A stretch of DNA of 53,974 nucleotides, taken from assembly GCA_021781655.1 (NCBI GenBank), contig JAJXWJ010000016.1, forward strand, positions 1-53,974. The letters run 5' to 3'. This document shows positions 14,697 to 33,117 of the stretch, piece by piece. Position numbers and translations under genes: made by a program. Origin of the DNA: Bacillota bacterium (GTDB taxonomy: Bacteria; Bacillota; Clostridia; Clostridiales; Clostridiaceae). Within the stretch, counting starts at the first letter, position 1. Each line of letters starts with the position of its first letter. The notes beneath the pieces were generated by a model, which saw nothing but the letters and a program-made list of their open reading frames with translations, made no database searches and was not told where the DNA came from.

Positions 14697-14853
14697 AGTA
14701 GTATATAATGGCTCTAGGTAAAAAGTATTATTAGGTCAATATGCTTTGAATTTTAAAGCAGTAAATATATAATACTCAAACTTCGCAGGATAAAATCAGT
14801 TGCAAATCCTTATATATTAAAGGTTATGTGACTTAAAATAGCAGTAAAATTGT

Positions 14854-14879
14854 AAATTTCACATGGATTGCTGAAATTT
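14854..14879 (-). terminator. Hairpin at the end of gatB
   Basis: Arms AAATTTCA and TGAAATTT with a 10-base loop overlap the gatB stop codon. On the minus strand the stem is followed by ACAATTTTA, a weak T-rich tail. Confidence 0.45.
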
Positions 14880-16296
14880 AAAATTTTCCTATTTCTTTCA
14901 TAATCAATTTATTAACAATTTGAGGATTAGCTTTTCCTTTAGTTTCTTTCATGATAACTCCTACAAGGTAGCCAACAACCTGAGTTTTACCTTTTTTATA
15001 GTCGTCAATAGACTTAGTATTACAAACCAAAACTTTCTTCACTAATTCCAATATAGTCTTTTCATCGCTATTTTGGATTAAGCCTCTTTCTTCGATAATT
15101 GCTTTTGGCGATTTACCTTTCTTAAAAACATCTATGATGATATTTTTACCAATGGCATTAGAAATTGTACCCTCATTTATTAGCATTATCAGTTCAGCTA
15201 ATTGTTCTGGTTTAAAGTTTGCACCTTCATTTTCCTTCAGAAGGCTGGCGATATCACCCATAAGCCAATTTGCAGTAGCTTTAGCATCGCCGCATATTTC
15301 CGTTGTTTTCTCAAAAAAATCTGCAACTGCTATTGAAATGGTTAAAATTTCAGCATCATACTTTGAAAGGTTATACTGTTCTATAAATCTTTTTTTCTTT
15401 TCAGGTGGAAGCTCAGGTATAGTTTTTCGTATTTCTTCTATCCAATCATCATCTATATTTAAAGTTACAAGGTCTCCTTCTGGAAAGTATCTGTAGTCAT
15501 TAGCAAATTCTTTACTTCTCATAACTACAGTATTATTTTTTGTATCATCCCATCTTCGAGTTTCTTGATAAAGTTGTTTTCCTGCTGAAATTTCAGATAT
15601 ATGTCTTTTAATTTCAAAATTAATAGCTTTTTCTAATGCTTTAAAGGAGTTAACATTTTTAATTTCTGTTCTTACTCCGAATTCTTTAGAACCTTTTTCC
15701 ATTACAGAAATATTAGCATCACATCTTAAAGACCCTTCCTCCATTTTACAGTCTGAAATGGATAAAGAGGTAAGAATATTTTTTAAATTTTCAAGAAATA
15801 ATACTGCTTCTTTAGCACTTCTAAGGTCTGGTTTTGTTACTATTTCAATAAGTGGAACTCCGGATCTATTAAAATCTATTAAGGTTTCATGATCAGTATG
15901 CAAAAGCTTTGCGGCATCTTCTTCAATATGTATCCGTTCTATTCTTATTTTCTTTGAGTTTCCGTTGTCTATTTCTATATCTATAAAACCATCTCTGCAT
16001 ACAGGAAGCTCCTGTTGACTTATTTGATAATTTTTAGGGCAGTCAGGATAAAAAATAGTTTTCCTATCCAATCTCCCGTATCTGGTAATAGAACAGTTTA
16101 AAGCAAGTCCAGCTTTTATAGCATATTCTACAACTTTTCTATTAAGCTGTGGTAGTGCTCCTGGAAGTCCCATACAAACAGGGCAGATGTGAGTATTAGG
16201 TTTCCCTCCAAATTCTGATAAACAACCACAAAATATTTTAGTTTTTGTTGCAAGCTCACAGTGAACTTCTAAACCTATAACAACTTCATATTCCAT
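14878..16296 (-). CDS. gatB: Asp/Glu-tRNA amidotransferase subunit B
   Basis: tRNA-binding kinase-like subunit of GatCAB. It phosphorylates Glu-tRNA(Gln) or Asp-tRNA(Asn) and, with ammonia from GatA, makes Gln-tRNA(Gln) or Asn-tRNA(Asn). The 472 residues are full length: cradle domain start YEVVIGLEVHCELATKTK, zinc cysteines in FCGC and CPVCMGLPGALP, KNYQISQ and EEDAAKLLH, and the C-terminal YqeY-like tail ending LIMKEIGKF. AAGGAGGAAAGTTAA precedes the ATG. It is third in the leader-gatC-gatA-gatB unit, 13 bases after gatA. Confidence 0.96.
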   Translation of the reverse strand: MEYEVVIGLEVHCELATKTKIFCGCLSEFGGKPNTHICPVCMGLPGALPQLNRKVVEYAIKAGLALNCSITRYGRLDRKTIFYPDCPKNYQISQQELPVCRDGFIDIEIDNGNSKKIRIERIHIEEDAAKLLHTDHETLIDFNRSGVPLIEIVTKPDLRSAKEAVLFLENLKNILTSLSISDCKMEEGSLRCDANISVMEKGSKEFGVRTEIKNVNSFKALEKAINFEIKRHISEISAGKQLYQETRRWDDTKNNTVVMRSKEFANDYRYFPEGDLVTLNIDDDWIEEIRKTIPELPPEKKKRFIEQYNLSKYDAEILTISIAVADFFEKTTEICGDAKATANWLMGDIASLLKENEGANFKPEQLAELIMLINEGTISNAIGKNIIIDVFKKGKSPKAIIEERGLIQNSDEKTILELVKKVLVCNTKSIDDYKKGKTQVVGYLVGVIMKETKGKANPQIVNKLIMKEIGKF

Positions 16297-16309
16297 TTAA
16301 CTTTCCTCC

Positions 16310-17770
16310 TTAAATGATTTGAGCCGTAAATTTATGCCAATCTGTTGATGACTCATAGCTGTAAGCTAAATTAAACAATGTAGCTTCACTAAAATAGTTT
16401 CCAATAAACTGTAGTCCAACTGGCAGGTTATTTACAAAACCACAGGGTACTGAAATTGCAGGTAACCCTGCTATATTAACTGGTACAGTATATATATCTG
16501 ATAAGTACATTGAAAGAATGTCTTTTGTTTTTTCTCCAAATTTAAAGGCAGGAGTAGGGGAAGTAGGAGAAAGTATAGCATCAAAATCGTTTAAAACCTT
16601 TTGAAAATCTTGTATTATTAAATTTCTAACCTTTAATGATTTTTTATAATAGGCATCATAATATCCAGCTGAAAGTACATATGTTCCAAGCATTATGCGT
16701 CTTTTTACTTCTTTTCCAAAACCTTCGCTACGTGACTTAAAATATAAATCAACTACATCTTCAGTATCTTTTGATCTGTAGCCATACTTTACACCATCAA
16801 ATCTACCGAGATTTGAAGAGGCTTCTGCAGAAGATATGATGTAATATGCAGCAAGAGCATATTGTGTTAGAGGAAGTGAACATTCTTTAACTTCAGCACC
16901 GTTTTCTCGTAATACCTTTATAGCTTTATCAATTGTTTTTCTTACATTATCATTTAGACCTTCACCAAAATATTCAACAGGGATACCTATTTTTTTACCT
17001 TTTATATCTTTTACAAGATTGTTTTTATAAGCTTGTACAGGTATATTTACTGTTGTATAATCTTTATTATCTATACCTGATATATTTTGAGCTAATAGAG
17101 CACAATCTTCTACGTCTCGTCCAATTACACCTACTTGATCTAGCGTTGAGCCAAAAGCTACAACTCCATACCTGGATATTCTTCCATAGGTAGGTTTAAG
17201 TCCTACTACTGAACAAAAGGAAGCTGGTTGACGTACGGAACCGCCTGTTTCTGTTCCAAGAGAAAGTGGAGCTTCAAAGGCAGCTACTGAAGCAGCAGAG
17301 GCACCGGAAGATCCTCCAGGAACATACATTTCATTCCAAGGATTTACGGTCTTTTTAAAGGCGCTATTTTCATTAGAGGAACCCATAGCAAATTCATCCA
17401 TGTTCAGTTTACCCAGTATAATCCCATTATTTTCTTTGATTTTTTTTGTAACCGTTGCATCATAGGGTGATATGTAGCCTTGTAAGATTTTTGATCCGCA
17501 GGTGTTTTGCATTCCTTTAACACTAATATTGTCTTTAACAGCAACGGGAACTCCACCTAAACCTTCTAATATTTCACCTTTTGTAATTTTTTCATCTAAA
17601 GCTTTTGAACTATTTAAAGCTTCCTCTTCTGAAACATGTAGATAAGCACCAATTTTTTCATCAATTTTAGATATATTTCGAATAAAAGCTTTTGTAACTT
17701 CTTCTACCTTAACTTCTTTGTTTTTTATCATGGCTTTTAGTTCATGAGCTTTATATTTATGTAATTCCAT
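16310..17770 (-). CDS. gatA: Asp/Glu-tRNA amidotransferase subunit A (amidase)
   Basis: Amidase-signature enzyme that hydrolyses glutamine and channels ammonia to GatB. The 486 residues carry the Lys-Ser-Ser catalytic triad context: VAVKDNI (Lys near 77), the glycine/serine loop [11 protein letters not shown], and [15 protein letters not shown] with the nucleophilic Ser. The frame is complete and GGAGGATTTTTTA precedes the ATG. It lies between gatC (12 bases) and gatB (13 bases), clearly one operon. Confidence 0.96.
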
Positions 17771-17782
17771 TAAAAAATCCTC

Positions 17783-18070
17783 CTATTCTATAACCGTGGG
17801 AACAGTAACATAATTATTAAATTTATCTAGAGCGTTAGCTAATATTGAATTAAGTTCTATAAATGGTTCCATCTCATCATCTCTAAATTTATTTTCAAGA
17901 TAATAGGGATTTACTATAATGTCTATATTTTCAGTATTTAATTCATTCAGTTTTTCCATGTAACCAAGCACACTATTTAAATCAATTATAAGGTTTTCTT
18001 TTTCTTCATCAGAAAAGTTTAATCTTGCAAGGTTTGCTATATATTCCACATCTTTTTTAAAAATCTCCAT
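17783..18070 (-). CDS. gatC: Asp/Glu-tRNA amidotransferase subunit C
   Basis: Small belt subunit of 95 residues that wraps and stabilises the GatA-GatB interface. The family pattern is clear: VEYIANLARLNFSDEEKENL at the start, a helical middle (LNSVLGYMEKLNELNTENID) and a C-terminal TVPTVIE. I start at ATG 18070, with AAAGGAG seven bases upstream, not at the in-frame TTG at 18076. The stop codon of a 31-codon leader ORF overlaps that ribosome binding site, so gatC translation is probably coupled to the leader. Confidence 0.94.
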   Translation of the reverse strand: MEIFKKDVEYIANLARLNFSDEEKENLIIDLNSVLGYMEKLNELNTENIDIIVNPYYLENKFRDDEMEPFIELNSILANALDKFNNYVTVPTVIE

Positions 18071-18082
18071 AATCAATCTCCT

Positions 18083-18178
18083 TTAAAGTATTATTTTTCT
18101 TTTATCAAATGGTGTATCATATTCAGCCAATACCCCTATAAACTCACTATTTTTTATTTGATAAGTCACTAATTTCAT
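18083..18178 (-). CDS. 31-codon leader ORF upstream of gatC (possible FAH-family N-terminal remnant)
   Basis: Short frame starting MKLVTYQIKNSEFIGVL, with a GGGGGG-type ribosome binding site five bases before its ATG. Its TAA immediately adjoins the AGGAG of gatC, which is the arrangement expected for translational coupling. The first 18 residues look like the start of a fumarylacetoacetate-hydrolase-family enzyme, so it is either a relic of an operon gene removed by an internal deletion or a leader peptide kept for expression. The weak similarity does not decide between the two. Confidence 0.55.
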   Translation of the reverse strand: MKLVTYQIKNSEFIGVLAEYDTPFDKRKIIL

Positions 18179-18204
18179 ATTTACCCCCCAAAATAAGAAT
18201 AATG

Positions 18205-18218
18205 TGATATATATATCA
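18205..18218. promoter_or_regulatory. TetR operator 1 (TGATA-N4-TATCA)
   Basis: Perfect 14-base palindrome TGATATATATATCA. It lies downstream of the leftward -10, inside the leader of the gatCAB transcript, where a bound repressor would block elongation or initiation. It shares its TGATA-N4-TATCA form with operator 2, exactly 60 bases away. Confidence 0.65.
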
Positions 18219-18230
18219 TATTTGTAAAGT

Positions 18231-18259
18231 ATCTTATCACACTAAATTTATCATGTCAA
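18231..18259 (-). promoter_or_regulatory. Promoter of the leader-gatCAB operon
   Basis: On the minus strand TTGACA (complement of 18254-18259), a 17-base spacer and TAAGAT (complement of 18231-18236) form a good sigma-A promoter. Operators 1 and 2 bracket it. Confidence 0.6.
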
Positions 18260-18264
18260 TAATA

Positions 18265-18278
18265 TGATACAAATATCA
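18265..18278. promoter_or_regulatory. TetR operator 2 (TGATA-N4-TATCA)
   Basis: TGATACAAATATCA, a perfect 5-base dyad with the same form as operator 1 (ATGATA/TATCAT with one more base each side). It lies between the two divergent promoters, 6 bases before the tetR -35. Confidence 0.65.
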
Positions 18279-18284
18279 TGTTTA

Positions 18285-18313
18285 TTGACTGAATTATGTT
18301 TCTTCGGTATAAT
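18285..18313 (+). promoter_or_regulatory. tetR promoter
   Basis: TTGACT (18285-18290), 17-base spacer, TATAAT (18308-18313); 35 bases upstream of the TetR start. Confidence 0.65.
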
Positions 18314-18348
18314 AAATTTATTTATAAAATTTAGAAAAGAGGTATATT

Positions 18349-18957
18349 ATGGCAGCTTCAGAAACAAGGGAACCCCGTCAGACTCGGGCAATAGAGAAGA
18401 AAAACAAAATTATAGAGGCTGGCTTCAAGCTATTTTGTGAAAAAGGCTATCATTATACAAATACAAATGAAATTGCTAAGGAGGCTGGAGTATCCACTGG
18501 GATAGTGTATCATTACTTTAAAGATAAGAAAGCAATTCTTTTAGCAACTGTAGGACAGATGGTTCCAAGCTTTGATCATGAAATAATAAATAAGTTATGT
18601 GTATCCAAAGATAGAAGAGAACTTGAAATTTTTTTATCAGAAACCATAGATAGGGATATTGATTTTCATAAGTTATTTAAAGCAGCACATGAGGAATTTC
18701 TAACTATGTGCCACTCTGATCCAGATATAGCGGAATATATGAAGGGGTTTCAAGACAAAGGTTTATCAAGAATTGCAGATACAATAGTATCAAATGGCTC
18801 AACTATTTCAAATCCCTATGAAAAAGTTGACATAATATATCATATGATAGATCAGTACTGTGATGCAGTAGTTTTTAGTAAACGAGAAAAAATAGATTAT
18901 AATATTATGAAAGAACTTTTAATAAAAAATATAATGAATTTGCTATATATAAATTGA
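18349..18957 (+). CDS. TetR/AcrR family regulator divergent from gatCAB
   Basis: Dimeric one-component repressor of 202 residues. The N-terminal helix-turn-helix is clear (IIEAGFKLFCEKGYHYTNTNEIAKEAGVSTGIVYHYFKDKKAIL, residues about 23-68). The ligand-binding half is helical and unassigned. AAGAGGTATATT precedes the ATG. It is transcribed away from gatCAB, and two TGATA-N4-TATCA palindromes lie between them, so it probably controls both itself and the amidotransferase operon. Control of a translation enzyme by a TetR protein is unusual. Confidence 0.9.
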   Translation: MAASETREPRQTRAIEKKNKIIEAGFKLFCEKGYHYTNTNEIAKEAGVSTGIVYHYFKDKKAILLATVGQMVPSFDHEIINKLCVSKDRRELEIFLSETIDRDIDFHKLFKAAHEEFLTMCHSDPDIAEYMKGFQDKGLSRIADTIVSNGSTISNPYEKVDIIYHMIDQYCDAVVFSKREKIDYNIMKELLIKNIMNLLYIN

Positions 18958-32826: not shown

Positions 32827-32960
32827 TTGATGAATAAGTTTAATGAAGTTGTACTTTAAGTGTTGCTTGGAAGTTATTGCATCGTATAATGAAGGGTTAA
32901 TCTATTAGTAAATTTGACTTAAAAAAAATGATGTGATATTATAATAAATAATTGAATACA

Positions 32961-33078
32961 CATCTTCAGAGCAGGGTGAAATTCCCTACTGGTGGTATAG
33001 CCCACGAGCGGAGCGAAAGCAATGCAAGATTCGGTGAAATTCCGAGGCCGACAGTATAGTCTGGATGAAAGAAGATAT
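32961..33078 (+). ncRNA. FMN riboswitch (RFN element)
   Basis: The conserved RFN core is present in order: CATCTTCAGAGCAGGGTG, AAATTCCCTACTGGTGGT, AGCCCACGAGC, a variable arm, GATTCGGTGAAATTCCG, AGGCCGACAGT and GTCTGGATGAAAGAAGAT. The first and last bases (CATCTTC / GAAGATA) pair to close P1. It is followed after about 40 bases by a terminator and then ribD. FMN binding is expected to stop transcription of the riboflavin operon. Confidence 0.96.
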
Positions 33079-33117
33079 TAGTTTGACACAATTATTGTGT
33101 TTTCTCTTGATATTTTG

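Follow-up and report, generated by a model that had tools for sequence, protein, structure and literature searches.

The amidotransferase GatCAB is usually regarded as a housekeeping enzyme, and ligand-responsive control of its genes would be surprising. In the stretch of clostridial DNA analysed here (53,974 nucleotides, referred to as a whole as the window), a gatCAB operon stands divergent to a tetR gene, and the question is whether the regulator governs the operon and, if so, what a regulated copy of GatCAB might be for. The initial annotation proposed TetR control through paired operators and suggested a second, conditional copy of the enzyme. Our preferred reading, to which a probability of roughly 0.6 is assigned, is that tetR-gatCAB is an accessory cassette under TetR repression that moves horizontally.

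Genes of the tetR-gatCAB locus

Profile searches bore out the product calls made in the initial annotation, with the TetR_N domain recognised by Pfam in the regulator, and gatC, gatA and gatB all full length and above their curated NCBIfam cut-offs (Table 1). The AF2 model of TetR (mean pLDDT 88, pTM 0.78) comprises nine helices in the all-helical TetR fold, and a Foldseek search of the PDB with this model returned TetR-type regulators, with TM values (query) of 0.39-0.76 among the 50 matches listed. The PDB sequence and Foldseek searches gave general TetR matches, FadR and QacR included, from which no ligand could be read.

The Lys/Ser/Ser motifs of GatA (K79, S154 and S178 by position) and the cysteine motifs of GatB (CGC and CPVC) are intact, and we take these to be the triad and the zinc cysteines of the respective proteins. 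The predicted product is an intact clade-I GatCAB, which would amidate Glu-tRNA(Gln) and/or Asp-tRNA(Asn). Of the columns on which the other 14 clade-I copies agree, the window GatB departs from 19, more than any other copy does. No riboswitch was found in the gatCAB leader, and no T-box in the window, at the Rfam gathering score. Two further features of the window are an FMN riboswitch above the Rfam threshold at 32958-33080, and an inverted repeat of 19 nt with 89% complementarity, possibly a terminator, which lies at the gatB end (14843-14890).

Table 1. Features of the tetR-gatCAB locus, with positions in the window.
Feature	Positions	Strand	Description
gatB	14878..16296	-	NF004012 673.4 bits, TIGR00133 574 bits, both above cut-off
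gatA	16310..17770	-	TIGR00132 628.7 bits (cut-off 481.1)
gatC	17783..18070	-	TIGR00135 90.3 bits (cut-off 47.1); ATG start, alternative TTG at 18076
31-codon ORF, probable N-terminal remnant of an FAH-family hydrolase	18083..18178	-	Directly before gatC; protein-level alignment
Operator-like dyad 1	18205..18218		12 bp beyond the gatCAB -10; 10/10 half-site columns invariant in 5 genomes
gatCAB promoter-like site	18231..18259	-	TTGACA-17-TAAGAT with TG; between the dyads
Operator-like dyad 2	18265..18278		Between the two -35 boxes; 7/10 half-site columns invariant in 5 genomes
tetR promoter-like site	18285..18313	+	TTGACT-17-TATAAT, 11/12 matches; starts 6 bp past dyad 2
tetR	18349..18957	+	202 aa; Pfam TetR_N 60.7 bits (cut-off 24)

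Candidate operators between tetR and gatC

The intergenic region contains two perfect TGATA-N4-TATCA dyads, TGATATATATATCA (dyad 1) and TGATACAAATATCA (dyad 2), 60 bp apart. As initially described, they bracket the gatCAB promoter-like site and dyad 2 adjoins the tetR promoter, and the arrangement is beyond chance. Indeed, these are the only perfect sites of this form in the 54-kb window, and none of 100 shuffles of the window held two; when the 278-bp tetR-gatC intergenic region was subjected to 20000 dinucleotide shuffles, at least one site appeared in 66 and two in none. Under a looser criterion that accepts any 5-N4-5 dyad occurring twice with the same arms, 54 of 5000 shuffles of this region qualified. 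The promoter scan was permissive, with 25 sites found against 15.2 expected.

The bare motif is not enriched genome-wide (15 perfect sites versus 17 for a reversed control pattern), and the ATR..TRT flanks common to both window dyads are absent from all 13 other genomic sites. On these two counts a genome-wide TetR regulon was rejected. In terms of outward base pairs of the flanks, each window dyad has 4/8, and one other genomic site (L142) has 5/8. Since the motif itself stands at the genomic background, the signal rests on the pairing of the dyads and on their conservation.

A search of 206 family genomes identified four others whose TetR is 59-66% identical, namely G148, G149, C. akagii DSM 12554 (G147) and G023, and the HTH region is nearly identical among the five proteins. 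Thus, five genomes encode this TetR at a level of at least 59% identity. Three of them have the tetR-gatCAB arrangement, with tetR adjoining intact gatCAB in G148 and G149 as in the window, whereas in C. akagii the gat genes near tetR survive as remnants. The tetR of G023, together with its dyads, adjoins a gene for a methyl-accepting chemotaxis protein, with no gatCAB beside it, indicating that tetR is not tied to gatCAB.

Both dyads are retained in all four relatives. Dyad 1 is kept in 5/5 aligned upstream regions without a change in its half-sites, and dyad 2 is kept with changes, being perfect in the window and C. akagii and imperfect in G148, G149 and G023; set against the remaining intergenic columns, of which 38/226 are invariant, conservation is significant for dyad 1 (Fisher p 5e-8) and dyad 2 (p 5e-4). 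The dyads are separated by 63 bp in the four relatives versus 60 bp in the window. A TTGAC(T/C)-17-TATAAT tetR promoter-like site is present in all five regions, and five of the six columns of the gatCAB -10 are invariant across the five genomes. TGTCAA, the reverse of TTGACA, likewise occurs in 5/5 regions, the window copy lying 3 bp nearer to dyad 2, with 0/6 columns aligned.

Sequence and conservation together support the paired dyads as candidate palindromic operators at the tetR and gatCAB promoters. It is conceivable that TetR acts on its own gene or on remote genes only, and that the nearness of gatCAB is accidental, as might be supposed from the location of dyad 2 beside the tetR promoter and from the retention of TetR and both dyads in G023 without an adjoining gatCAB. 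However, dyad 1, which is the better conserved of the two, is on the gatCAB side and just past the promoter -10, and we consider this explanation very improbable.

Other gatCAB copies, GlnRS and AsnRS

The window genome was searched for another gatCAB, and one was found, in a T-box-aspS2-gatCAB operon. The genome accordingly has two gatB genes, the tetR-linked gene and one on contig C101 behind a T-box, detected at the Rfam gathering score, and an aspS-type gene; with an assembly of 168 contigs and 97.7% completeness, further gatCAB may have been missed. The tetR-linked GatB belongs to a different clade from the T-box-aspS2-linked GatB and is the only clade-I copy found in this genome. In relatives, clade-I gatCAB is located behind pcrA-ligA (L108, L111, L114 and L116; the pcrA-ligA names were checked with profiles for L108, L111 and the window-genome locus). 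The window-genome pcrA-ligA locus, which is on a different contig from the tetR-linked gatCAB, has no gatCAB between a small membrane ORF and a convergent ORF, these being 58% and 49% identical, respectively, to their counterparts at the G148 site. The LigA encoded there (L128 3448-5439, contig C152) is only 42% identical to that of G148, whereas the adjacent PcrA is much closer (pN 0.14 versus 0.41 for LigA), and the window-genome ligA looks like an in-place replacement where gatCAB is missing.

In both G148 and G149, gatB is present three times, as a tetR-linked, a ligA-linked and an aspS2-linked gene, and the T-box that precedes the last of these reached the Rfam score in G149 but not in G148. 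The window genome also has GlnRS, in two pieces at separate contig ends with about 40 residues in common, and hence very likely a single gene. GlnRS scored above cut-off in none of the eight other genomes searched, and AsnRS did so in 9/9, window genome included. Among the 206 family genomes, with clade I cut at 580 bits, a value chosen after the scores were seen, 17 have both clade-I GatB and GlnRS, 37 clade I only, 138 GlnRS only and 14 neither; the two avoid each other (Fisher p 1.4e-16, relatedness ignored). Ten genomes of genus g21 (G124, G126, G127, G129, G130 and G132-G136) combine GlnRS with clade-I GatB, an apparent redundancy.

Because the ligA site is without gatCAB, and GlnRS and AsnRS are present, the tetR-linked copy looks conditional. 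The initial suggestion of a second, conditional copy therefore stands in part. Another gatCAB does exist and the idea of conditional use is strengthened, but the other copy is not plain housekeeping and the ligA-linked one is missing from its usual site; "simply a second copy" has given way to a T-box copy alongside the one clade-I copy that was found. A more ordinary role can be envisaged, in which the tetR-linked copy replaced the ligA-linked gatCAB and is now needed to repair Glu-tRNA(Gln) made by a still non-discriminating GluRS, with TetR only tuning its supply. The fact that no other clade-I gatCAB was found, the vacant ligA site and the coexistence of GlnRS with clade-I GatB in 17 of the 206 family genomes are what would be expected in this case. 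The window genome, however, has GlnRS and AsnRS, the ligA-linked copy persists alongside the tetR-linked one in G148 and G149, and dN/dS exceeds that of the ligA-linked copies (see below), such that we regard this role as improbable.

Phylogeny, divergence and selection

Trees were built from 20 of 122 GatB places, and neither the trees nor the divergence counts included the gat remnants of C. akagii. In a concatenated GatA and GatB tree (IQ-TREE), the three tetR-linked copies form one clade (support 100/99) among the clade-I copies of genus g24. AU tests rejected trees in which genus g24 was held together without the window copy (p 0.0006), and also those in which the g24 ligA-linked copies were held together without the tetR-linked ones (p 0.018). 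GatA alone agrees with the tetR-linked grouping (FastTree 0.98), whereas in the tree of GatB alone the window copy falls close to the clade-I base, weakly supported (0.55), and apart from the other linked copies. Long branches lead to the window copy (0.27) and to L124.

Synonymous differences between G148 and G149 amount to 0.11-0.29 for tetR and gatCAB versus 0.39-0.61 for seven other genes, and those between the window and G148 to 0.47-0.51 for GatC, GatA and GatB versus 0.62-0.74 for the other seven; for the PcrA of G149 the comparison was confined to a shorter stretch, owing to an intein. This intein interrupts pcrA at L111 38-2509 (Pfam Intein_splicing 36.0 bits, cut-off 35.8). TetR of G149 and C. 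akagii differs by 0.24, compared with 0.56-0.75 for the seven other genes in the same pair, whereas the window TetR, at 0.58 (G148), 0.63 (G149) and 0.66 (C. akagii), is scarcely, if at all, below the others. The window and G149 are similar in DNA from the end of gatB to the end of tetR (14877-18058 and 18326-18941), and the neighbours on either side differ. The tetR-linked gat genes are under purifying selection (dN/dS of 0.12-0.27), looser than that on the ligA-linked copies of G148 and G149 (0.06-0.09).

The clade of linked copies and the lowered synonymous divergence suggest horizontal spread, and the simplest reading is that a tetR-gatCAB unit has been transferred, most clearly among G148, G149 and C. 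akagii. Alternatively, the lowered synonymous divergence could reflect gene conversion or other differences in rate. That the unit appears to be a horizontally moving cassette is a finding beyond those of the initial annotation, which also made no mention of the 31-codon hydrolase remnant before gatC or of further genomes carrying the unit. A tblastn search for relatives of TetR in 72,556 plasmid records found none at E 1e-15, and none was found in viral contigs; GatB had matches in 49 plasmid records, all of less than 60% identity.

Neighbouring genes and probable hydrolase remnants

At the C. akagii locus, tetR is accompanied by a gene for an FAH-family hydrolase (Pfam FAA_hydrolase, 217.9 bits) and one for a putative alpha/beta hydrolase, whose likeness to that family is sub-threshold (21.5 versus a Pfam cut-off of 26.3 bits), and then by remnants of gatC and gatB. 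The gatC-gatB remnant behind the hydrolase genes (L113 8984-9632) has collapsed, with no gatA match in between. The 31-codon ORF of the window matches residues 1-17 of the FAH protein of C. akagii, a score that none of 2000 shuffles equalled; at the DNA level the alignment with the FAH gene spans only 19 bp, and the ORF has no Pfam or NCBIfam match. Its comparison with the C terminus of the C. akagii alpha/beta hydrolase was discarded as no better than shuffles, 331 of 500 of which reached the same score. The DNA of G149 still shows the ribosome-binding region and the beginning of the FAH gene, with an early stop, and G148 has no clear FAH remnant. An FAH gene was probably once promoter-proximal and was later lost.

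This history invites the alternative that the TetR module governed hydrolase genes, and that their deletion left gatCAB first behind the promoter, with its regulation incidental. The FAH remnants of the window (protein level) and G149 (DNA level) would accord with such a capture, as would the intact FAH and putative alpha/beta hydrolase genes that C. akagii keeps between promoter and gat remnants, and the chemotaxis gene adjoining tetR in G023. Conversely, gatC, gatA and gatB are open and under purifying selection in three genomes, where they are linked to tetR in different neighbourhoods, and both dyads have been kept. We therefore judge incidental regulation to be unlikely, albeit the most serious of the alternatives to a regulated accessory cassette.

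Neighbours were inspected for part of the TetR and GatB matches, comprising 30 TetR loci (1.5-kb flanks), another 33 and 20 further regions. At 49 loci with distant TetR relatives (L020-L069 without L045, not all of them independent and many with short flanks), identity is mostly 30-48%, rising to 60-68% in two short fragments. Of these 49 loci, 17, L020 itself included, have within the stretch inspected a MacB-type ABC ATPase at least 55% identical to that of L020. G148 (L107 11375-12876) and C. akagii (L113 7463-8965) share a membrane-protein ORF next to the gatB end, and the opposite orientation of the cassette beside this ORF suggests either inversion or repeated insertion at one site.

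A model for tetR-gatCAB

In the cassette model, a TetR dimer would most likely bind both dyads. Its presence on dyad 1 would block gatCAB transcription just past the start, at initiation or early elongation, and at dyad 2, between the divergent -35 boxes, it would restrain both gatCAB and tetR itself. Release of TetR by a small molecule would complete a system of autoregulated, ligand-relieved repression. The cassette would have moved between clostridia, in an earlier form bearing hydrolase genes between promoter and gatC. Its GatCAB is a third copy in two relatives and, in the window genome, the only clade-I copy found, beside GlnRS, AsnRS and T-box-aspS2-gatCAB. Judging by the ancestral hydrolases, and by the transporter genes that neighbour tetR in some of the more distant relatives, the small molecule that would act as ligand may be foreign or catabolic. 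Drug or amino-acid stress, offered in the initial annotation as an example, is a guess as to the trigger.

A bolder version, which we regard as doubtful, is that of an inducible spare-target module. Here, TetR would sense a natural inhibitor or toxic analogue and induce a GatCAB that is resistant or that restores correct Gln/Asn charging, ancestrally together with hydrolases that degrade the compound, and the module would spread by virtue of protecting clostridia. If the cassette model is correct, bacteria can switch on the indirect Gln/Asn route for a reason, despite possessing GlnRS and AsnRS, and the TetR ligand would reveal the reason for a regulated, travelling GatCAB.

Comparison with known systems

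No report of TetR control of gatCAB was found in the open-access literature, subscription journals being mostly outside the scope of the search, and open-access work on clostridial gatCAB redundancy did not reveal the tetR-gatCAB arrangement either. T-box-regulated genes for tRNA-dependent amidation have reportedly been described in Clostridium acetobutylicum. These resemble the present case in being redundant, conditionally expressed clostridial gatCAB, and the other gatCAB of the window genome has both a T-box and an aspS-type gene. The window copy differs in that it has no Rfam T-box and no aspS2, belongs to another GatB clade, and is accompanied by TetR and dyads. The clostridial pcrA-ligA-gatCAB locus likewise encodes a clade-I GatCAB, but the window cassette is at a different site, has its own regulator and a higher dN/dS, and shows lower synonymous divergence between G148 and G149.

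Mupirocin-resistant IleRS is a horizontally acquired spare tRNA-charging enzyme. The likeness lies in a spare translation enzyme that moves between species, with the difference that no GatCAB inhibitor is linked to the window locus. In Mycobacterium smegmatis, mistranslation and rifampicin tolerance both change when GatCAB is mutated (PMC7541841). As regards regulation, the locus is similar to those of QacR, AcrR and Bacillus FadR in its TetR fold, divergent gene and palindromic sites, putative here, at two promoters. Unlike in those systems, however, the neighbouring operon encodes a tRNA-amidating enzyme.
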